Shown here one piece after another: positions 18,462-61,177 of a DNA stretch of 64,000 bases. The stretch's first letter is position 1, and each line of letters opens with the position of its first letter. Location: NCBI RefSeq assembly GCF_022508225.1, contig NZ_JAETXJ010000012.1:1-64000 (forward strand), in the 5' to 3' direction. Under the pieces are notes generated by a model. That model ran no database searches and was not told where the DNA came from. It saw nothing but the letters and a program-made list of their open reading frames with translations. The DNA comes from Desulfovibrio sp. UIB00. GTDB lineage: Bacteria; Desulfobacterota; Desulfovibrionia; Desulfovibrionales; Desulfovibrionaceae. Position numbers and translations under genes: made by a program.

Positions 18462-21400
18462 ATGCACATGCTGCTCAACCCTGGCCGACTTCGCCTTATC
18501 ACGCGCATTTTTTTGGCGCTTCTGTTAACCCTGTCGGCTATGTCGGCGGCGGTCTTTTGGCTTTTGCAACGCAATCCCGAGGCGCTGGCGCAACATTATA
18601 TTGAACAGATTGCCGCCAGCACCGGCCTGAATATTACCGTTGAATCGGTCAATGTGGCTCTTTTGCCGCTGCCATCCCTGGCTGTCAGCAATGCCAGCGT
18701 TGAGGGCAAGAGCTTTAGTTTTACCGTTGCCTACGCCACACTCCGGCCCGACTTTCTGGCGCTGCTGCGCGGCGAACTGCTGCCCCGCAATATCACCCTG
18801 CTGCGCCCCCGCCTCAAGGGCGAACTGCCCGTGGCTCTCAGCCTGCCCTTTCTGTTCCCTGACAATGCCGAAGCCGCCCAGCCCGTTGCAGCTCAGGCCG
18901 CGCCAGAAAGGAGCGCATCCCCCAAAAAAGCGTCCCCAAAATCCGTCCCTCAGCCTACCGCAGCCTCTGCGGCAAAGGCCAGCACACCGCCGACGCAGGA
19001 AGCAGCGATCCCAGCCGCAACAGATGCGGCGGTTCCCTCGCAAAGCGCTGCCGCGCAAGAGCTGCCCCCTGCGCAGAATTCCATACAATCATGGCTGTCC
19101 CGGCTTGCCGGGGACAACACTGGAGGCGCGGCTCTGTTGCCGGGCATTTTGCCGGGTCGGTTCAGACTGGCTGTTTCACAGGGCGAAGTGGACATCATCG
19201 GCGCGGACAAAACGCAAGTGACGGCCAACGGGTTGCAATGCGACCTGGAAACCGCCTCGGGCACACGCCTTGAGGGCAACTTTTTTTGCACCACAGCGGT
19301 TCTACAGCCAGAAGGTCAAACGCCAGCCAAGGTTGAGCACCTCAATCTGGAAGGCAAGACTGACCTCTCGGCCCCCCTGGCAAAAACGCCGCAACTGGCG
19401 GTCAAGGGCACCGTGCAGCTGCCCAACTGGCTGGCCCGCCTCAACTTTGCGCTCGGCCTCAAGGCTGATGCCAATGGCTGGAGCCTGACCAGCGACCTTG
19501 AAGGCGAACTGCGCAAGGATGAAGTGCTGCTGCCTGCCCACGTTACCGGCACTGTGGCCCAACGCAGCAAGGAAGATCAAGGCATCAACCTAGAAAATCT
19601 GCGCCTGCGGCTTGGGCAGGATGATGTGACCGTCAACGGCCTGCTGCTTCTGGGCGGACCGGACACTTTCAGTATTGAAGGACGTCTGCAACTGCAGCGC
19701 GCAAGCCTGACGGAATGGCTGGGCTTTGCCCGTAATCTGGCGCCCGGCCTTCAGGTTGCGCTGGACGAAGTAACCTTGGGCACCCTTGATTTTTCAGTGA
19801 ACGGCAAAGGGCTGCGCGTTCCGCATATTGACGTAACCGCCGCTGGCAGCCGCTTTTTGGGTTCCGGCGGCGTTGCGAGCTGGGCCAGGCCTGAACTGCT
19901 GCTGGATCTCAAGGCCGAGACTGTGAATCTGGGGCGCGCCATCCCTGAATCGGTGGGGGTATTGCCTGCCGAACCGCGATACGGCCACGGGCCACTCACT
20001 CCCATGCCCGGCAAGCCTGTGGTGCCCGGCGAAATCGGGCTTGATTACAACATCCGGCTGGCTGCAACCCGGGTGAACTACGGCCCCATCGTAATCAATG
20101 ATGCGCTGGTCGTCATCAAGCAGGGGCTGGTTGACCAGGTCACCCACTTTGAAGACACGCTGCTGATTGTTGACGGCACTCTTTACGGCGGCAGCGTCAA
20201 GGGCGACACCATCATGGGCGGTCACCCGGATACCCCCTACGCCATCCGCCTGCACATGCGCGACGTTAACGGCGAGAATCTGGCAAAAGACCTCCCGGTC
20301 ATGCCCGTGAGCGGTGGCAAGCTGCGCGGTGATGTGGACGTTATGAGCCAGGGGCGGGAGCTGGATGTTTTTCTGGGCAAATTGCGCGGCACGGTAAGCG
20401 CCCGGGCTGAAAAAGGCCAGTTGCGCCCGCCGAACAATATCCCAGGCAAGGCCTCCCCCGGCGCAGTGGGCTTTAAAGCGCTTGATTTGAGCCTTAAAGC
20501 CCGCACGGCGGCCTGGGAGCAAAGCCGCCTGGGCCTTGAAGGCCAGTGGACCGCCACCATTGAAGATGAAGGCATTGACGCCAGCGTGGGCCTTAACGGC
20601 AGGCTCTGGTTCAGCGGCGATGGTCAGGGCGGCGGCAACATGGATTTTCAAAACCTGCCCGGCACCATCAGCCTGAGCCTCAGCCCGGAAAAATCCTTTC
20701 AGCCAGAGGGTCTGCAAACGCAAATCAGCGGCAAATTCAGTTGTCAGGCTGCGCGCAACCAGCTTTCGGCCACAGACATGCACATGAACGCCCTTGGGGC
20801 GGACATTTCCGGCGCGGGGCAACTGGGCATGGGCAAGGACGGCATGGTCTGGCAGGGCAAGGTTTCCGCCTTTATCCCGGACAGCACAAAAACGCTGCGC
20901 CTGCTTGGCGCTGCCAACCCCAATGTGCCGCAACCTCTGCGCAGGATCGAGCTGGACACTGCCTTCAAGGGCGATAGCGGATCCCTGGCGCTGTCAGAGT
21001 TCCGCGCCAAGGTGGATCAAAACGATATTTCCGGCAGCATCAGCCTTGACTGGCGCAAGGAACTGGCCCTGCGATTCAAGCTCTCCGCTCCGCAAATTGA
21101 TCTTGACCGCTACGTGGGCGACAAGGCCGCCGGGCAGGCGGACGGCGGCAAAAGCAAAAAAAAGACCGACAGCAAACCGTGGGATCTGCGCTTCATGCGG
21201 GCATTTTCCGCTGAGGGCGAAGCGCACGTTGGCCAGCTCACCCTGTGGAAACTGCGCACCGATGACCTGCGCCTTAAAGCCAAAATGGAGAACGGAACCC
21301 TGCGCTATGAAAGTCAGGGCGGCAAATTTTATGGCTCGCCCGTGTCTGCGCATGGTGAAATGCGTTTCAACAAGGGGATGGGGTTTGCCAATGCCCTGTC

Positions 21401-28600: not shown

Positions 28601-29874
28601 TCGCAGGCCGACATGACTTCATCGTAGGGCATATTCAAAAAGCCGTCTTCTCCATTGAGCATGGCTGGCACAAAGATGACCTTGACCCTGTTTTCCGGCC
28701 TGTTGTTCAGGCCCAACCGATGGCAGGCATTGAGTATGGGATCTTGTGGCGCATTCCAGGCAAAATGGGTGCAGATAAAGGGCAGACCGTTGTCGTTGGC
28801 CTCGGGGTCGCCAGAAACCGCAGCGGTATTAACGCCCGTATGCCCGCCCATGACAAGGCACAGGGCCAGAATGGAAGCGTCCGTGCCAGCCAGGCTCTGC
28901 TCAAGTTTTGCCAGGGCATCAAGAAAGATGTCCACGCCCTTGTTGTGCATTTCATAGCGGCCAGAAATGGCGAAAATGCGTGTGTTGGCGGGCAGTTCGC
29001 AACGCAGAAAGCGGTTGGCGGCCTCCACTATGCGCGCCCGGTGTTCCTCCGGGCGGGAGCGTTCTACGGAATAATCGGGGATAACCCGCATATCCAGACC
29101 ATTGGTGGTGATGACATCGGGCTGCCGCCCCAGCAGCACCGTGGATTCCTCGCCGGTGATGGGGCTGACGGTGGTAAAAACGTCCGCTTCGCGGGCGCTG
29201 GCCCCCTCAAGCGACCACTTGGCCGTGATGTTCAGGGCTGCGGCCTCGTTGGCGGGGTTGATGCTGCGCAGGTTGGAATAGATATCCCGCCCGGTTCCGG
29301 CCATGGCGCGCCCGAGCATGGTGGCGTGGGTAGTGAACACCGTGCCTATGCCGGGAGACAGTTTTTTGAGCGAAAGCAGGCCAGCGCCGCACATCCATTC
29401 GTGGAACAGGGCAACGCTGCGTCCTTCAAGGGGTTCGACCCGGCTTTCATGAATGGCCGCAATAACCGCACTGCAAGCCGTGGCGAACATGACGGGTTCA
29501 ATATAGTCCCACCCGCCGGAAAGCGAATCCACACCGTAATTTTTCCACAGATCATACAAAAGCTGGTTGCTGGAATAACGCTTGGCAAAATCCACCAGAA
29601 TGGCCTTGGGGCGACCGGGAATATTCCAGCGGCCCATGCGGCATTTGAGATCCTTTGTGGCAAATGCCAGGCGAAGCGAATCCCATATATTCTCGTCCGT
29701 TTCTTCAAAACCCACATTTTCAGCCAGGGACGGGCCAAGGAGAAAATAGTCCTCGCCAAACTGCTCTACAGCCTGCAATGCCTTGCTGCTGACCACAGAG
29801 TAAATGCCCCCCACCTTGTTGCAGACTTCCCAACTGACCTCAAACAACGTGACGGTGCTGTTATCGAAATTCAT
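25618..29874 (-). CDS. Fused glycogen synthase (GT3-like) and alpha-glucan phosphorylase (GT35)
   Basis: The 1418-residue protein joins two opposing activities of glycogen metabolism. Residues 1 to about 560 resemble the eukaryote-type glycogen synthase family GT3: FEVSWEVCNKVGGIYSVVSSKA at the start, LFHEWMCGAGLL, FTTHATMLGR, TTNGLDM and the C-terminal FPSWYEPWGYTPQESAA. Residues about 585-1418 are a glucan phosphorylase of the short GT35 type: AYFSTEYGLSESIPIYSGGLG, TNGIHVPSY, and the pyridoxal-phosphate motif EASGTSGMK with Lys1168. AAGGAG precedes the ATG. It is the last gene of the operon, 29 bases after the GH57 gene. The synthase donor (UDP- or ADP-glucose) cannot be read from sequence. 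I see no frameshift or internal start that would split it. Confidence 0.92.
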   Translation of the reverse strand: MNFDNSTVTLFEVSWEVCNKVGGIYSVVSSKALQAVEQFGEDYFLLGPSLAENVGFEETDENIWDSLRLAFATKDLKCRMGRWNIPGRPKAILVDFAKRYSSNQLLYDLWKNYGVDSLSGGWDYIEPVMFATACSAVIAAIHESRVEPLEGRSVALFHEWMCGAGLLSLKKLSPGIGTVFTTHATMLGRAMAGTGRDIYSNLRSINPANEAAALNITAKWSLEGASAREADVFTTVSPITGEESTVLLGRQPDVITTNGLDMRVIPDYSVERSRPEEHRARIVEAANRFLRCELPANTRIFAISGRYEMHNKGVDIFLDALAKLEQSLAGTDASILALCLVMGGHTGVNTAAVSGDPEANDNGLPFICTHFAWNAPQDPILNACHRLGLNNRPENRVKVIFVPAMLNGEDGFLNMPYDEVMSACDVGCFPSWYEPWGYTPQESAAWAVPTLTTDLSGFGMWARTQLQEGAAAFKGVCVMPRRGMNFEQSATVLHEHLIRAATCAVDDLPQWRAEARALAEKSSWQFFFENYVRAFEIAFKKASTRINCDCGHAALARVLSTSCSATPFLRPIMAVAEVPEELSRLRDIAHNVWWCWHDKAKALFMALSPSHWESWRNPLKMLEQADPERFRDLLENEDYMNLYREVVAKFDAYMAEPIRSLSTDVTPEAPIAYFSTEYGLSESIPIYSGGLGVLSGDHLKSASDMAIPLVGVGLLYKNGYFRQDIDADGRQVAQYPVNNFGLMPISMVYDADNQPIYVQLELPGRLLFARVWKLAVGRINLYLMDTDTRRNTDEDRRITDKLYEANREVRLLQEMLLGMGGMRLLRTMHIMPSVFHMNEGHSAFMAMERLQECLSMGMNYTEATVRVRSNTVFTTHTPVPAGNESFSLELMERYFSGIAANLGLSWQQFVQLGQIEGGNSNSFEMTVLALRHSCWANGVSRLHGVVSRHMWNNLWKSLPVAETPIGHVTNGIHVPSYVGSWMHELLHQYLGSGWMQSPPGSGVWDKVDHIPDEAFWAARMHQKEALLDDLRRRIPEFIQKFHLSSDERKRMESMLKPDTLIIGFARRFAPYKRATLIFADPDRLARILSNTNRPVVLVFSGKAHPADEAGINMIQEVLRMCRDERFLGRIFFVENYSLAVSRIMAQGCDVWLNTPRRPHEASGTSGMKLPVNGGINLSISDGWWCEGYNRQNGWTIGPVVSTELPSSEQNDYADAEALYSLLENAVVPLYFERNAEGLPLEWVATAKRSLKSLTAMYSSNRMLNDYIRQFYLRAARRRNMLRDNNWEACRALAAWQNDLPARFGTVKVDELTISGVENNTMVCGEPVSVQLRMHLGEMKPQEILVQLVIGQALINGSFRDKPEILRLEPRAEENCKECMRYTASYIPTFSGHYRYGVRIMPVHPAQASPLETDNILWA

Positions 29875-51609: not shown

Positions 51610-52437
51610 TCAGGCGCGGTCTTCAGGGCCAGCGGTATCGTCTGCCGCATCATCAGCCGCATCGTCTGCGTCCGCGTGCATGGCGGAAACCGACGAGGTA
51701 CTGGACGCGAAGTCAGCCATACCAGCTGACTGGACCGCGCCGCCAGTGCGCGCCCCTTCGCCGCGTTCTTCACTCTTGTGCTTCACGCTTTCGCCCTGGC
51801 TGATAAAGTAGACCTGCTCCGCAATGTTGATGGAACGCCGCCACACGCGTGTAAGCGAGCGGGTCACAAGTATGATGTGCATGGCCTGATAGGGATCCAG
51901 CGAGGCATCAGGGTCAGAAAGGCTTTCCATAATCTGCTGGATGATGCGCACTTCGCTTTGCACGGCTTCTTCATCACCGCGCAGCATATGCAGGGCGTCT
52001 TGCGCATTGTTTTCACGGAACACACGCACGGCGCGGTCAAAAGCCTCGCTGGCCTTGTAGTACATTTCGCGCACATGGGGGATCACCCCAAAGCCAGGCT
52101 TGTCCTGCATCAAAATAGCCTGCTCGGCCATGCTCACGGCTTCGTCGCCAATGCGCTCAAGATCAACCACCATACGCAGAGCGCTGACCACAAAACGCAG
52201 ATCTCCGGCAACGGGCTGTGTGCGGGCAAGCAGTTGCAGGGCCATCTCGTCAATTTCATTTTCCAGAGCGTCAATGGCGGCATCGTTTTCAATGACTGAT
52301 GCCGCGCGGCCCGGATCACCAGCCGCCATGGCCTTGCCGGCGTCTTCCAGGGCAATGCCCACGCTGGCGCACATGACCAGCAGCCTGGTGCGCAGTGATA
52401 CGAGCAGTTGTTGCAAATAATTGGCCTGTTGCTGCAT
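51610..52437 (-). CDS. phoU: Phosphate transport regulator PhoU
   Basis: PhoU links the Pst transporter to the PhoR-PhoB system and represses the regulon when phosphate is ample. The first 215 residues form two PhoU helical repeats; metal-binding-type motifs are ERIGDEAVSMAEQ in the first and a diverged VWRRSINIAEQVYFI in the second. The last 60 residues are an unusual tail, Ser/Gly-rich then strongly acidic with Asp-Ala-Asp repeats, absent from typical PhoU of about 220-240 residues. It is the last gene of the phoB-phoR-pstB-phoU series. Confidence 0.93.
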   Translation of the reverse strand: MQQQANYLQQLLVSLRTRLLVMCASVGIALEDAGKAMAAGDPGRAASVIENDAAIDALENEIDEMALQLLARTQPVAGDLRFVVSALRMVVDLERIGDEAVSMAEQAILMQDKPGFGVIPHVREMYYKASEAFDRAVRVFRENNAQDALHMLRGDEEAVQSEVRIIQQIMESLSDPDASLDPYQAMHIILVTRSLTRVWRRSINIAEQVYFISQGESVKHKSEERGEGARTGGAVQSAGMADFASSTSSVSAMHADADDAADDAADDTAGPEDRA

Positions 52438-52543: not shown

Positions 52544-53299
52544 TTAGCCAAAACGGCCTGTAATATAATCTTCCGTCTGCTTCTTGGCCGGTCTGGTGAA
52601 CATGACATCCGTGGCGTTGTGTTCAATAAGCCTGCCCATGTAAAAAAATGCCGTGTAGTCAGAAACGCGGGCCGCCTGTTGCATGTTGTGCGTAACAATG
52701 ATGATGGAAAGCGATTCGCGCAATTCGCGGATACTTTCTTCAATCTTTTGCGTGGCGATGGGGTCAAGGGCGCTGGCGGGTTCGTCCATAAGCAGCACTT
52801 CCGGCTCCACAGCCAGGGCGCGGGCAATGCACAGGCGCTGCTGCTGCCCGCCGGAAAGCCCAAGCGCCGGGCTTTGCAGGCGGTCTTTGACTTCTTCAAA
52901 AATGGCGGCCCGGCGCAGGGAAAGTTCCACTTTTTCAGCAATCAGGCTTTCGTCCCGCAGGCCATTGACGCGCAGGCCGTAGGCCACGTTTTCGTAAATG
53001 GTTTTAGGGAAGGGATTGGGCTTCTGAAAGACCATGCCCACGCGGCAGCGCAGCGAAACCACATCTGTATCGGGACGGTTCACGTCCTGACCATCCAGAA
53101 GGATTTCGCCTTCTACGCGCGCGCCGGGAACAAGGTCGTTCATGCGATTCAGACAGCGCAGAAAGGTTGATTTGCCACAGCCCGAGGGGCCAATCAGGGC
53201 CGTAACCCTGCGCGGCTCAAAATTCAGGCTTACTTCGTGCAGGGCCTTGTTTTGCCCGTAGTATACACTGACGTTGCGTGCCAGCAGATGCTCGTTCAT
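52544..53299 (-). CDS. pstB: Phosphate ABC transporter ATPase PstB
   Basis: The ATPase of the high-affinity phosphate importer, 251 residues. Walker A GPSGCGKS is at about 37-44, the PstB-specific [20 protein letters not shown], signature [15 protein letters not shown], Walker [15 protein letters not shown] and THNMQQA for the H-loop. It belongs with the permease genes pstC and pstA, yet lies on the other strand, overlapping phoR by 4 bases (ATGA) and 106 bases before phoU. Confidence 0.97.
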
Positions 53300-55185
53300 G
53301 AAAGTGCCGCTCCGTAAACGGAAGATAGGGTGAAAACAAGGGCCGTGCTGCCGTCCTGCGCCGGGCTTTCCGCCCGGATGCGGCCACCGTGCCGTTCAAC
53401 AATGTGTTTGCAGATGGCCAGGCCAAGACCGGTAGTTGCCTGCCCCCTGTGCCGCTCCACCTGATAAAAACGTTCAAAAATGCGCTCCAGATCGGCCTTG
53501 GGAATACCGGGGCCGTCATCCACCACGCGAAAGACCACATCCGGGCCGCTCACGCGCGCGCTGATGCGCACATCGCCGCCTTCCGGCGCGTAACGTCCCG
53601 CGTTTTCAATAAGGTTTCTGAACACCTGCGCCAGATGCGGCTGGCTTGCCATCACGCGGCAGTCTTCGGGGATATCCACAACCACCGAACACTTCCGGCG
53701 CTCAAGCACTTCGCGGCACATACCCGTTGCCTGCGATACGGCATCGCGCGGATCCATGGGGCTGAGTTCCAGACTGCCTGTCTTGCCCTCCAGTCGGGCA
53801 AGGGTGAGCAGATCATCCACCATACGGCTAAGGCAAACCCCGTGTTTCAGAATGATTTCGCCAAAGCGGCGACATTCTGGCGAGGCATCCAAGCTGATAA
53901 GGGTTTCAGCATAGCCCTGAATGGCTGTCAGCGGGGTGCGCAGCTCATGCGACACATTGGCCACAAAATCGCGGCGCACGCGCTCCAGGCGCATAAGCTC
54001 GGTAATATCGTGGAATACCGCCACCGCGCCCACGCCGGTCTGGCCCAGATGCTCAAGGCCGCAGGGGCGGGAGATGCAAACCGACATGACCTGTCCGGAC
54101 GAAAGCTCAAGTTGCAGATACCGCTGCTCCCGATTGAGTGTTGGATCTTCGCCTGTAGAAGCGCTCTCGTGTTCCGCAGCGAAGGCACCACTGTTTTGTA
54201 CCGCGTCTGCCGGGGTTGCCCCAGAACTGTGCGCAGAACCTGGCGCAGAAACGGGTACCGGGCAGGCGGCCATGGCGGCATCCACAGCGGCCTGCAACTG
54301 CGGCGAAGGAATGACTTCCACCACCTGCGCGCCCAAGGCCGATGCCGCAGCAGGAAATTCACGAGCCAACGCGCGGTTGCAGCGGCGAATGCGCCCGTGC
54401 GGGCCCAGCACCAGTACGCCGTCGCTCATGGTTTCCAGTATGCTTTCAAGCTGGGCCGTCTGCTCCGCTGCCGTGCGCACATGGTCTTCAATATTCTCGG
54501 CCATACGGTTCACGGCTTCAGCCAGCGGGGCAAATTCCCTGCCGGGAATGCGCCGCAAACGCCGCTGAAAATTCCCCAGTGAAATGGCTTCCACCACAGA
54601 GACCATCTGTGAAAGTGAATTGCGCAGCGCGCCGGAGAGCAGGCCCGCGAGAATCAGCGAGAGCACCAGCGTTACAATGCCGATTCTGGTAAATACAGCT
54701 ACGCGACTTTCAATTTCCTGTTGCAGGTTGTTCAGCGGCAGGGCAATACGCAGCAGCCGCGCGTCATTCACGCGCACCGAGGCATACGCCATATCTGTGC
54801 CCAGCGTACCGCTCGAACGCACGGAATATCCCTGCCCGCCCTGCATGGCAGCCCGTACCTCCGGCCTGTCCGCATGGTTGTCGAGCTTGGAAACCGGCTG
54901 CGCGCCCGGCGCAGTGTCGGCCAGCACGTTGCCGTTGTTGTCAAGGAGCGAAAGCCGTTCCTGCGGCATTTGCAGTATGCCTGCCAGCTCGCGCAGGCCC
55001 TCAGGGTTCGCCCCTGCCTTGTCAAGAATGGCGGCAGACAGCGTAGTTTCGCGCAGCAGCCTTTCACGGGCCGCGTCAACCTGGCTCTGCTCAAAGGAAG
55101 CCCTGCCGTAATAAACGGCTATTCCCGAAGCAATGAGCGCTGCGGCAAGCACGCTGCAAAAAATTCGTGTTCTGAAAGAAAGCAT
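53296..55185 (-). CDS. phoR: Phosphate regulon sensor histidine kinase PhoR
   Basis: A 629-residue membrane kinase: first helix at about 5-24, an extracytoplasmic domain of about 130 residues, second helix at about 160-180, a HAMP-like linker, a PAS domain (about 245-400, with a long Ser/Ala-rich insert) and the kinase core. The phospho-accepting His is in [20 protein letters not shown], followed by [14 protein letters not shown] and [36 protein letters not shown]. The start is taken at 55185 (first helix follows at once); a Met 7 codons upstream is possible. It lies 127 bases after phoB. The extracytoplasmic domain is larger than in E. coli PhoR, so it may sense more directly. Confidence 0.92.
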
Positions 55186-55312
55186 GGTTTTTCTCGCTCG
55201 TAACATGCTGTCGTGGGCAATTACATTTTAAGGATGTGCAACCTCAAAACGATCAAACGATGACACTGTCGGCCATCAGCCAGGCATACCGCCCTGTTCC
55301 CGTCGCTGCGCC

Positions 55313-55990
55313 TTATTCCTTGATGCGGTAGCCAACGCCGCGCACAGTCTCCAGCATGGGAGCTGCCTCGCCCAGCTTGGCGCGCAGCCTGCGCACATGC
55401 GTATCCACGGTGCGGGCATAGCCTTCAAAGGAATACCCCCAAACGTTGTTGAGAAGCTGCTCCCGGGTACGGACTGATCCGGCATGCCGCAGCAGGTCTT
55501 CAAGCAGCCGGAATTCCGTTGCTGTGAGGCTCAACAGCTCGCCTTCCACTTCGGCGGAATGCGCCTCAGTGCGCAGGCGTATGCCGTGGCGTTCAAGCAC
55601 GGGGCTTTCAACCTTGCGCCCGCCGCGCCGCAGCACGGCCTTGACGCGCAACATCAGCTCGCGGACGCTGAAAGGTTTGACCACATAATCATCAGCGCCA
55701 AGGCTCAGTCCCACCACCCGGTCCACTTCTTCACCACGTGCGGTGAGCATGAGTACCGGAATGTGGGAGGTTTCAGCCTGCGCCCCAAGGCGGCGGCACA
55801 CCTCAAATCCATCCACACCCGGGAGCATCACATCAAGGAGCACCAGGTCGGGGGTGTGCTGCCGGGCAAGGGCCAGACCCTGTGTGCCGTCGGCTGCTTC
55901 ATGCACGGTGAATCCCTCGCGCTCAAGATTGAAACGCAAAAGTTCACGAATATCGGCTTCGTCTTCAACTATCAGTATTTGCTGGCTCAT
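55313..55990 (-). CDS. phoB: Phosphate regulon response regulator PhoB
   Basis: The 225-residue OmpR/PhoB-type regulator has a receiver domain with Asp53 (LLDVMLPG) as phosphorylation site, Asp10-Glu11 for metal and Lys near VKPFSVREL. The C-terminal winged-helix DNA-binding domain includes LTATEFRLLEDLLRHAG and VRTREQLLNNVWG and RTVDTHVRRLRAKLG. The ATG at 55990 has GAGGTGAAA 8 bases upstream; a GTG 9 bases earlier is less likely. A minus-strand Pho-box-like repeat lies upstream, suggesting self-activation. It would bind the Pho boxes listed for pstS and the porin. Confidence 0.95.
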   Translation of the reverse strand: MSQQILIVEDEADIRELLRFNLEREGFTVHEAADGTQGLALARQHTPDLVLLDVMLPGVDGFEVCRRLGAQAETSHIPVLMLTARGEEVDRVVGLSLGADDYVVKPFSVRELMLRVKAVLRRGGRKVESPVLERHGIRLRTEAHSAEVEGELLSLTATEFRLLEDLLRHAGSVRTREQLLNNVWGYSFEGYARTVDTHVRRLRAKLGEAAPMLETVRGVGYRIKE

Positions 55991-56054
55991 ATGTTTCACC
56001 TCTATGACGCAAACAGAGTACAGCGGCTTTGTGCGCCAAACTGATGGAGGGCAT

Positions 56055-56072
56055 GTTACAATTGCGTGACGA
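56055..56072 (-). promoter_or_regulatory. Pho-box-like site upstream of phoB
   Basis: Read on the minus strand the site is TCGTCAC-GCAA-TTGTAAC: two 7-bp direct repeats with a 4-bp spacer, the PhoB pattern. It closely resembles the pstS site. It lies 65-82 bases upstream of the phoB start codon. Confidence 0.5.
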
Positions 56073-56147: not shown

Positions 56148-56165
56148 TCGTCATATTTCTGTAAC
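56148..56165 (+). promoter_or_regulatory. Pho box upstream of pstS
   Basis: TCGTCAT-ATTT-CTGTAAC has two 7-bp direct repeats, 11-bp periodicity and an AT spacer. It matches the classical CTGTCAT-N4-CTGTCAY Pho box at 5 and 6 of 7 positions. It ends 71 bases before the pstS ATG. Confidence 0.65.
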
Positions 56166-56236: not shown

Positions 56237-57055
56237 ATGTCTATCGGAAAACTGCTCGCCACTGCCCTCACGGTTCTGAGCCTTAGCGCTCCGGCCATGG
56301 CTGCCCAACAGGTTGTCATCAACGGTTCCACGACTGTGCTTCCTGTGGTCCAGAAAGCTGGCGAAGCTTTCATGGCCTCCCACCCCGATGTGGAACTGAG
56401 CATTTCCGGCGGCGGTTCCGGCAACGGCATCAAGGCACTCATTGAAAAACAGTGCGACATCGCCATGAGCTCACGCGACATCAAGGAAAAAGAAGTTGAA
56501 GCCGCCAAAAAAAACGGCGTGACCCCCAACCGAGTTGTTGTTGCCATTGACGCCATCGTACCTGTGGTCAACCCCGCCAACCCTGTTGCCGCCCTCACCA
56601 CTGCCCAGCTGCGCGACATTTACGCTGGCAAGATCACCAACTGGAAGGAAATTGGCGGTCAGGACGGCAAGATCGTTGTCATCTCCCGCGATACGTCCTC
56701 CGGCACCTTTGAATGCTGGCAGGAACTTATCATGAAGGAAGAGCGCGTTAACCCCGCCGCCCTCATGCAGGCGTCCAACGGCGCTGTGGTGCAGGCCATT
56801 TCCAAGAACAAGAACGCCATCGGCTATGTTGGTCTTGGCTATCTCGACAAGTCCACCAAGGGCCTCAAGGTCAATGATGTGACCGCCAGCGCCCAGACCG
56901 CCCTTTCAAAGCAGTGGCCCATCGCCCGCGAACTTTTTGTCTTCACCAACGGCGCGCCTGCTGGCGGCGCCAAGGCCTTTGTGGATTACCTCCTGGATCC
57001 CGGCAAGGGCCAGAAGAACGTACTTGAAGTGGGTTATGTGCCCCTGGGCAAGTAG
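56237..57055 (+). CDS. pstS: Phosphate ABC transporter, periplasmic binding protein PstS
   Basis: The 272-residue protein has a signal peptide (cleavage near AMAAQQ, residue 22-23) and a type II binding fold with the phosphate-contacting segments NGSTTVLPV, ISGGGSGNGIKAL, AMSSRDIK and SRDTSSGTFE. It captures phosphate in the periplasm for PstCAB. AAGGAG precedes the ATG and a Pho box lies upstream. It heads the pstS-pstC-pstA operon; a hairpin separates it from pstC. Confidence 0.96.
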   Translation: MSIGKLLATALTVLSLSAPAMAAQQVVINGSTTVLPVVQKAGEAFMASHPDVELSISGGGSGNGIKALIEKQCDIAMSSRDIKEKEVEAAKKNGVTPNRVVVAIDAIVPVVNPANPVAALTTAQLRDIYAGKITNWKEIGGQDGKIVVISRDTSSGTFECWQELIMKEERVNPAALMQASNGAVVQAISKNKNAIGYVGLGYLDKSTKGLKVNDVTASAQTALSKQWPIARELFVFTNGAPAGGAKAFVDYLLDPGKGQKNVLEVGYVPLGK

Positions 57056-57136: not shown

Positions 57137-58027
57137 ATGCGCTCCAGAGACATCAAGGAAAAAGCGGTGCGCGTCACCCTTACCACCATGGCAGGCAGCT
57201 CGCTGCTGGCTCTGGCTGGTATTGTCATTTTTCTCTTCATGGAAGGCCTGCCGCTTTTCAGCGAATATCCCTTCCTCAATTTTCTTTTCGGCAACCTGTG
57301 GTATCCCACTGAGGAACCGGGATTGTTCGGCATATTCCCCCTGCTGGTGGCCTCACTGGCGGTGACGGTGCTTTCGTCTCTGCTGGCGGTGCCCATGGGG
57401 GTGCTGACAGCGGTTTACCTGACGGAAATCGCTCACCCCAATGTGCGGCGCGTCATTAAGCCTTTCGTGGAACTGCTGGCGGCATTGCCCTCGGTTGTGC
57501 TGGGTTTTCTGGGTATGGTGGTGCTTGCGCCCTTCCTACAGGATTTTCTGGACGCAGCCACAGGCTTGAATCTGCTCAATGCCTCGCTGGTGCTGGCGCT
57601 CATGAGCGTGCCGACCATCTGCTCCGTGTCTGAAGATGCCCTGTTCGGTGTGCCGCGCGACCTGCGCGAGGCATCGCTGGCACTGGGCGCTACCCGCTGG
57701 CAGACCACAGTGCGAGTGGTTATTCCTGCCGCTCTTTCGGGCATAGGCACAGCTGTGATGCTTGGCATGTCGCGCGCCATCGGTGAAACCATGGTGGTGC
57801 TGATGGTTGCTGGCGGTGCTGGCATCATCCCCACCTCGCTGCTTGACCCGGTGCGGCCCATGCCCGCCAGCATTGCCGCAGAAATGGCGGAAGCAGCATT
57901 CCGTAGCGAGCACTACCACGCGCTTTTTGCCATTGGCATTGTGCTCTTTTTCCTGACGCTGGCCTTCAATCTGGCTGCCGGATACATAGCCGAGAAGCAC
58001 CGTCAGGTGGGAACCTCAAGCCTGTAA
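57137..58027 (+). CDS. pstC: Phosphate ABC transporter permease PstC
   Basis: A 296-residue inner-membrane subunit with about six helices and the ABC permease coupling loop EDALFGVPRDLREASLALGATRWQT. The N-terminal part is preceded by GGGGAGAAAGCGCA, a good ribosome site. The large periplasmic loop between the first two helices (SEYPFLNFLFGNLWYPT) is typical of PstC. It forms the channel with PstA. Confidence 0.95.
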   Translation: MRSRDIKEKAVRVTLTTMAGSSLLALAGIVIFLFMEGLPLFSEYPFLNFLFGNLWYPTEEPGLFGIFPLLVASLAVTVLSSLLAVPMGVLTAVYLTEIAHPNVRRVIKPFVELLAALPSVVLGFLGMVVLAPFLQDFLDAATGLNLLNASLVLALMSVPTICSVSEDALFGVPRDLREASLALGATRWQTTVRVVIPAALSGIGTAVMLGMSRAIGETMVVLMVAGGAGIIPTSLLDPVRPMPASIAAEMAEAAFRSEHYHALFAIGIVLFFLTLAFNLAAGYIAEKHRQVGTSSL

Positions 58028-58084
58028 CCGTTCAGTGTTGCCAGGTTGCGCAGTATGACGCCAGTTCAGAACGAGGAAAAATCC

Positions 58085-59077
58085 ATGTCAGCCACCAGCC
58101 GCCTTACCCCTGTTCCTTCCACCGGGCCGAGCATCAAGCTCACACCGCGCCCTCTGGAAGCAGACCTCAAACACCACGATGCAGAAGAACCGCCGCGCGA
58201 AGAAGGCGTGCGCCTGCAATTTGCCAGCGGCAAGGGCCGTGGGCAGTACCAGACCTTCATGTTCTGGATGTTGCGCGCGATTGCCGCTTGTAACGTGCTG
58301 GCATTGCTGGCCGTATGCGCCTTTTTGCTGCAAAACGGCTTGCCTGCCCTGAGCTGGTCGTTCCTGACCGAGGCTCCCCGGCAGATGATGACCAAGGGCG
58401 GTATATTCCCCTGTATCGTCGGCACGGCAATTCTTTCGCTGGGTTCACTTTTGCTGGCGTTTCCTCTGGGCGTGGCCTCCGCCGTGTACCTCAATGAATA
58501 CGCCAAGCGTAACGCCTTTGCCCGCTTCGTGCGGCTGGGGGTCAACAACCTCGCGGGTGTGCCTTCGGTTGTCTTTGGCCTGTTCGGACTTTCGTTTTTT
58601 GTTACCTTTTGTGGATTTGGCGTTAGTATTCTTTCTGGCGTGCTCACCCTTGCGGTCCTGACCCTGCCGGTCATTATCGGCACAGCCGAGGAAGCCCTGC
58701 GCAACGTGCCGGACACATACCGCGAGGCCTCGCTGGCTCTGGGCGCAACCAAATCGCAGACTATTGCCCGTGTTATTTTGCCAAGCGCGCTGCCCGGCAT
58801 GCTCACTGGGGCTATTCTTGGCGTGGCGCGTGCTGCGGGCGAAACCGCCGCCATCATGTTTACGGCCTCGGTATTCTATATGCCCAAGGGGCCGGATTCC
58901 ATATTCAGCCCGGTCATGGCGCTCCCCTATCATATGTATGTTCTTGCCACGGCTGGTACGGAAATCGACAAGACCCGCCCCCTGCAATACGGCACCGGCC
59001 TCGTGCTGCTCTTGCTGGTACTGGGTATGAACCTGCTTGCCATCATCCTGCGCGACAGGTTGCAGAAACGCCACTAA
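58085..59077 (+). CDS. pstA: Phosphate ABC transporter permease PstA
   Basis: The second channel subunit, 330 residues. The coupling loop is EEALRNVPDTYREASLALGATKSQT. A soluble N-terminal extension of about 60 residues comes before the first helix, longer than in E. coli PstA. Of three in-frame ATGs the one at 58085 is best, with GAGGA 7 bases upstream. The operon ends here without pstB, which lies on the opposite strand. Confidence 0.94.
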   Translation: MSATSRLTPVPSTGPSIKLTPRPLEADLKHHDAEEPPREEGVRLQFASGKGRGQYQTFMFWMLRAIAACNVLALLAVCAFLLQNGLPALSWSFLTEAPRQMMTKGGIFPCIVGTAILSLGSLLLAFPLGVASAVYLNEYAKRNAFARFVRLGVNNLAGVPSVVFGLFGLSFFVTFCGFGVSILSGVLTLAVLTLPVIIGTAEEALRNVPDTYREASLALGATKSQTIARVILPSALPGMLTGAILGVARAAGETAAIMFTASVFYMPKGPDSIFSPVMALPYHMYVLATAGTEIDKTRPLQYGTGLVLLLLVLGMNLLAIILRDRLQKRH

Positions 59078-61018: not shown

Positions 61019-61148
61019 AAATCCCTTCCTCTCTAGTTTTTCCCACAGGGTTGACACAGGCCTGCTCCAACACAGGCTGTGAAAACATACCTAGAATCAT
61101 GGATGATGGCAACCATTTTCGTCAAAAAATTTTTACCAGACTGTCACA

Positions 61149-61177
61149 ATGGCAGAAATATGACGCTTAAATGACAT
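61149..61177 (-). promoter_or_regulatory. Three-unit Pho-box-like array upstream of the porin gene
   Basis: Read on the minus strand: ATGTCAT-TTAA-GCGTCAT-ATTT-CTGCCAT. Three 7-bp direct repeats with 4-bp AT spacers give exact 11-bp periodicity. The last two units differ from the pstS site at few bases and share its ATTT spacer. Confidence 0.6.

Follow-up and report, generated by a model that had tools for sequence, protein, structure and literature searches.

PhoE of E. coli is a PhoB-induced porin with a Pho box, and OprP and OprO of P. aeruginosa are phosphate porins that share a 16-strand trimer fold. In the classical Pho promoter the -35 element is replaced by the Pho box, which lies about 10 bp from the -10 element. 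The D. vulgaris PhoB (DVU1083) regulon has pst targets and a gel-shift validated box, a direct repeat of (c/t)GTnAC whose copies are 4 bp apart (PMC3333781, PMC6456213), and the main text of PMC3333781 does not mention 'porin' or 'outer membrane'. A PhoB site before the por operon, described for D. vulgaris only, was bound in vitro without a reliable change in expression (PMC6456213), which sets a precedent for caution. The accessible text on the major D. vulgaris outer membrane porin, DVU0799, mentions no phosphate regulation (PMC5686591). No PhoB-regulated porin in Desulfovibrio is reported in the titles and abstracts of the literature that we searched.

The window analyzed here, a whole stretch of 64 kb from Desulfovibrio sp. 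UIB00, contains a porin gene beside phoB and the pst genes (Table 1). As in phoE, CTGTCAT-type repeats spaced by 11 bp lie upstream of the gene and PhoB is their presumed regulator. Unlike in phoE, the array leaves the -35 element intact and precedes both it and a UP-like element, and the protein is a DESULF_POR1 member with no sign of basic-residue enrichment. A link to phosphate starvation, as for OprP and OprO, is plausible, whereas neither of these proteins is among the fold matches listed for the Desulfovibrio porin. On balance we lean towards reading the array as a PhoB operator in front of a porin promoter that is strong and would otherwise be constitutive, and PhoB control of the gene is plausible. 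If true, sulfate reducers would have an outer membrane channel that responds to phosphate, a step unnamed for PhoB in the D. vulgaris texts cited, and the locus would show cleanly how the regulation of an old promoter was recently rewired; at present this is a good prediction.

Table 1. Coordinates of the genes and putative regulatory elements in the window; promoter positions are counted from the predicted transcription start.
Feature	Position	Strand	Remarks
phoU	51610..52437	-	TIGR02135 above cut-off
pstB	52544..53299	-	TIGR00972 above cut-off
phoR-like sensor kinase	53296..55206	-	TIGR02966 244.8 bits, below cut-off; PnpS model higher, also below
phoB response regulator	55313..55999	-	TIGR02154 best, 259.5 bits, below 296.2 cut-off
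Pho box A, phoB-proximal, ATGTTACAATTGCGTGAC	56053..56070	+	counterpart in 27/30 genus phoB-pstS regions
Pho box B, pstS-proximal, TCGTCATATTTCTGTAAC	56148..56165	+	counterpart in 25/30 genus phoB-pstS regions
pstS	56237..57055	+	TIGR02136 above cut-off
pstC	57137..58027	+	TIGR02138 above cut-off
pstA	58046..59077	+	TIGR00974 above cut-off
Porin, DESULF_POR1 family, 517 aa	59465..61018	-	NF033939, E 4e-136
-10 element TATGTT	61084..61089	-	17-bp spacer
-35 element TTGCCA	61107..61112	-	9/12 together with the -10 element
UP-element-like GTAAAAATTTTTTGACGAAAAT	61115..61136	-	-59 to -38; close equivalents in 21/21 aligned upstream regions
Second out-of-phase 11-bp series TTGTGAC-AGTC-TGGTAAA-AATT-TTTTGAC	61121..61149	-	overlaps UP-like element
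Pho-like unit 3 CTGCCAT	61149..61155	-	about -78 to -72; poor fit to the genus PhoB half-site
Pho-like unit 2 GCGTCAT	61160..61166	-	about -89 to -83
Pho-like unit 1 ATGTCAT	61171..61177	-	about -100 to -94

The array, the local Pho boxes and the candidate regulators

The gene order is phoU, pstB, phoR and phoB on the minus strand, pstS, pstC and pstA on the plus strand, and the porin gene, a small ORF and gpmI again on the minus strand, with 5 kb between phoB and the porin array. The genome (3.46 Mb in 20 contigs) encodes nine DESULF_POR1 porins, this one included. The small ORF adjoins the porin gene in 25 of 38 porin loci, and gpmI is present in 24 of those 25 (not seen in L035); pstA is found inside the 1.5-kb flanks in nine of the 38 (L001, L010-L015, L019 and L023).

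Between 159 and 131 bp upstream of the porin ATG (61018) the minus strand reads ATGTCAT-TTAA-GCGTCAT-ATTT-CTGCCAT (61177-61149), three 7-mers with an exact period of 11 bp, just as a sequence-only reading of this DNA had described them. The units depart from CTGTCAT at one, two and one positions, 4 of 21 in total. A genus PhoB matrix was made from 26 distinct sites of the phoB/pstS boxes only and is strict because these were picked for perfect cores; the validated D. vulgaris por site scores 8.3 with it. By this matrix the pair formed by units 1 and 2 (61160-61177) ranks 6th among 127,964 window positions, below the two pst-region boxes (one of them read on both strands) and positions 29847-29864 and 20327-20344. 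The last two sites, both on the plus strand, score 15.5 and 12.5 bits. Units 1 and 2 reach 5.6 and 5.5 bits against the genus half-site and unit 3, with GCCAT where GTnAY is expected, stays at -0.9 bits. Units 1 and 2 thus repeat the PhoB half-site in direct orientation with an 11-bp period, as a Pho box would, and the PhoB-matrix scan bears out this part of the proposed three-unit Pho box and not its third unit.

The pstS site at 56148-56165 with which the array had been compared is real; it corresponds to TCGTCATATTTCTGTAAC, and CGTCATATTTCTG is common to it and to porin units 2-3. PstS matches were obtained in 43 of 79 genus genomes, 30 of which provided phoB-pstS regions. When a counterpart had to match 7 or more of the 8 core letters, box A was absent in three of these regions (L056, L063 and L068) and box B in four (L057-L060), L061 being doubtful and left uncounted. 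Three-unit arrays occur in the phoB-pstS regions of L057-L060 and L065, and the half-site of the genus in such regions is [CT][CT]GTNA[CT] with 11-bp spacing, in agreement with the box described for D. vulgaris PhoB. The strict pair YGTNAC-N5-YGTNAC was located at seven distinct places in the UIB00 genome (nine matches, two of which are reverse readings), fewer than expected, given 48 matches of the reversed control pattern. One place is the phoB-pstS region; another, CGTAACGCGGGCGTCAC at L155:1501-1517, is about 100 bp upstream of an alkaline phosphatase gene (PF00245, E 6e-66); and a third, at L153:1501-1517, directly follows the gene of a solute-binding protein and precedes that of an ABC ATPase, the best models of both genes being for 2-aminoethylphosphonate, below their cut-offs. 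Two more (L151 and L154) fall within long reading frames, that of L156 in overlapping frames that are doubtful as coding sequence and that of L152 between two ORFs. Since the places include phoB-pstS, the alkaline phosphatase and the aminoethylphosphonate-like genes but also reading frames, the motif is meaningful in this genome, with some background.

PhoB is the best candidate for the regulator of the array, because its putative half-site is common to the phoB-pstS boxes and to units 1-2 and because phoB is nearby. The genome encodes only three OmpR-family regulators (Trans_reg_C proteins), PhoB, a KdpE-like protein and the L147 protein, and a PDB search with PhoB returned family relatives only. 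One of the two others might bind the array, in which case the porin would answer to a signal other than phosphate. The best NCBIfam model of the L147 protein is that of PhoB (170.9 bits, below the cut-off of 296.2), so that it could read similar repeats, and this protein together with the conserved TGCC of unit 3, which deviates from the Pho half-site, keeps a rival regulator in play. We nevertheless regard it as unlikely, given the fit of units 1-2 to the local PhoB half-site, the location of the array beside phoB and pst and the higher score of the window's PhoB with the same model (Table 1).

The porin promoter and the possible action of PhoB

A promoter scan gave TTGCCA-N17-TATGTT (61112-61084) and an overlapping TTGACG-N18-CATGAT (61125-61096), both with 9/12 matches, and shuffled sequence gave a mean of 0.3 such matches. 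The former is the likelier promoter because it is conserved, with equivalents in 21 aligned upstream regions. The predicted transcription start is at about 61077, which places the array at about -100 to -72. The label UP-like for GTAAAAATTTTTTGACGAAAAT follows the UP consensus. Placed by the -35 element, this A/T block spans -59 to -38, where a UP element is expected (PMC2613000). The layout is not that of a classical Pho promoter, since the array does not replace the -35 element: about 36 bp separate the end of unit 3 from it, and the gene has its own -35 and UP-like elements.

A complete sigma-70 promoter with a UP-like element should be strong without an activator. As it appears complete without PhoB, we regard the array as a supplementary input from PhoB rather than the main switch, and its place upstream of such a promoter makes it more likely that PhoB tunes a general porin than that it creates a phosphate porin. 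Upon phosphate limitation, phosphorylated PhoB would bind tightly to units 1-2 and loosely to unit 3, occupying one face of the helix from about -100 to -72. There it could contact RNA polymerase, through the alpha C-terminal domain that adjoins the UP element, and porin transcription would rise together with that of pstSCA; more copies of the general porin would then ease the entry of phosphate into the periplasm. The lineage would thus probably adjust one of its nine porins to the phosphate supply. The PhoB regulation proposed earlier retains in its favour a PhoB-like, conserved array beside phoB and pst, and loses ground because this array is limited to a clade and lies upstream of an intact promoter.

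The same binding might instead repress the porin, or tune it down, at low phosphate, as the promoter seems to need no activator for completeness. The array, at -100 to -72, is however upstream of the promoter, and in Desulfovibrio it is the activator sites that are usually found there, repressor sites being usually downstream (PMC6456213); repression by PhoB is improbable.

Chance expectation and conservation of the array

Chance expectations were taken from 60 first-order Markov simulations of 64 kb. The array is the sole three-unit site with at most 4/21 mismatches to CTGTCAT on either strand of the window, and the simulated windows contained a mean of 0.05 such sites. The evidence from single pairs is weaker: pairs with 3/14 mismatches occur at nine places in the window, two of them inside the porin array, and pairs with at most 3/14 mismatches occur 3.95 times per simulated window. 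The pattern TGTCATNNNNNYGTCAT (TGTCAT-N5-YGTCAT) has one match in the 3.46-Mb genome, the porin array, and its reversed control has none.

In the seven closest species, aligned by anchoring on the UP-like element, pairwise identity was 0.88 in the unit cores, 0.60 in the unit edges, 0.46 in the linkers and 0.33 in the flank. Of 11 phases the expected one came out best (0.28, with 0.26 for the neighbouring phase), with a column-permutation p of 0.0018 that ignores shared ancestry and the correlation of neighbouring columns. The GTCA of unit 2 and the TGCC of unit 3 are retained in all seven species and the TGTC core of unit 1 in six, L010 having TGGC; as variants, unit 1 contains TGTCGG in L011, L013 and L015 and TGGCAT in L010. 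The seven clade members, among them a genome deposited under the name D. desulfuricans SZUA-457, have 4, 5, 8, 4, 8, 5 and 6 mismatches to CTGTCAT at -159 or -158, and a strong unit 1-2 pair (at least 10 bits) is present in only three. According to a soft matrix, to which each region contributed its best pair (30 distinct pairs), the best three-unit chain in L010, L011, L013 and L015 is the second, out-of-phase series of Table 1. This series possibly holds further half-sites, inseparable from the UP element, and was not counted as independent evidence because that element partly makes it. Cores that are kept while linkers and flank drift are what a factor that contacts each turn of the helix should leave behind and, judged by this alignment, the pattern is the footprint of a protein recognising direct repeats with an 11-bp period.

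Among 25 syntenic orthologs, three have the strong pair and four a weakened array recognisable by alignment, and in 18 no good array was found (7-12 mismatches at scattered places), with a faint counterpart in three. The 18 include L019 and L023, where pstA also adjoins; the array is absent as well in the non-syntenic L016 and L017. Conservation upstream of orthologous porins, which the sequence-only reading had made decisive, is therefore only half borne out. As far as this comparison goes, the array is real and selectively conserved, and in its full form it is limited to a small clade of seven species. The best three-unit matches of L018, L020 and L022 are at -163, near the clade position of -159, with 9, 7 and 7 mismatches and soft-matrix p values of 0.35, 0.55 and 0.047, nominally significant in L022 only. 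About 163 bp before the porin these three carry a TGTCA..TGAC motif, with TGNC at 11-bp steps, which may be a diverged array or a different operator. A relaxed three-unit pattern was derived from the aligned clade, so that it tests specificity and not conservation, and it misses L010 by one substitution; in 288 family genomes it had seven matches, six before this porin in the clade and one elsewhere (G266).

A chance resemblance in an AT-rich promoter would agree with an array that is strong in only three species and recognisable in seven related ones, and with single pairs that are not rare in the window. Both the scarcity of simulated three-unit sites and the drift of the linkers around stable cores argue against it, and we give it little credence. 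With the array taken as a PhoB operator, a tentative history can be proposed in which the clade wired a general porin into its phosphate regulon by means of a far-upstream PhoB array, evolved anew or sharpened from a faint older version, beside the pst genes and before an ancestral UP-element promoter, hence in a non-classical layout.

The porin protein and other porins

The porin matches the whole DESULF_POR1 profile NF033939 (positions 1-454 of 454) with 454.3 bits, above the cut-off of 250, and thus belongs to this family; a Pfam search gave no match up to E = 0.001 and a PDB sequence search none up to E = 1. Once the first 23 residues are removed its net charge is -8, within the range of -4 to -17 of its eight paralogs, and it has no K/R excess over them. 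The AlphaFold model is a large barrel (pLDDT 73, pTM 0.75) whose nearest folds among the matches listed are OprD/Occ, AlgE and MOMP, with OpdL matched at Z 24.3 and rmsd 2.8 over 315 aligned residues; OprP and OprO are not among the 50 matches listed for either fold search, which does not exclude a likeness. The protein is probably a general, anion-tolerant channel. Since DVU0799 already prefers anionic sugars (PMC5686591), the passage of anions requires no PhoE-like specialisation. A dedicated PhoE- or OprP-like porin, PhoB-induced and phosphate-selective, would suit the array, the gene neighbourhood and this preference of DVU0799, but it is the least probable of the readings, as the promoter is of the constitutive type and phosphate selectivity finds no support in the ordinary family membership, the charge and the predicted fold, so that the earlier label of a PhoE-like phosphate porin is unsupported as a property of the channel.

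Pho regulation of the porins as a family was also considered and rejected. From a sample of 91 distinct porin upstream regions (105 before identical ones were removed), 84 are outside the clade, and seven of these have pairs scoring at least 8 and four at least 9. Shuffles would give 1.2 and 0.73, and 3,726 real 300-bp segments 1.96 and 0.92; these segments come from more than promoters and most of them are probably coding, which makes the excess a hint at most. The highest score outside the clade, 10.8 at 289 bp upstream, is that of L085, another porin in the deposited genome of clade member L079. Pairs of 9.7 and 9.2 bits (shuffle p 0.007 each) precede two paralogs of the UIB00 genome itself, L004 (-237) and L009 (about -204 to -243), so pairs of this strength occur elsewhere too. 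For the paralogs L002, L003, L008 and L009 the match start is not an ATG and the initial upstream windows were approximate; when these were re-set to a nearby ATG no array was found, the best pairs scoring 3.9, -0.8, -0.6 and 9.2.

A GT-A/T-AC palindrome located at the UP position of the present gene, 61121-61136 on the minus strand, is present again in many of the genus's porin promoters. Its form GTWAAAWWTTTTTDAC is found at only three places in the UIB00 genome, namely this one, L148 and L149, and one of the matches is placed shortly before an OmpA/Pal-like lipoprotein ORF that adjoins a TolB-like ORF, both labels being given from the look of the sequences.
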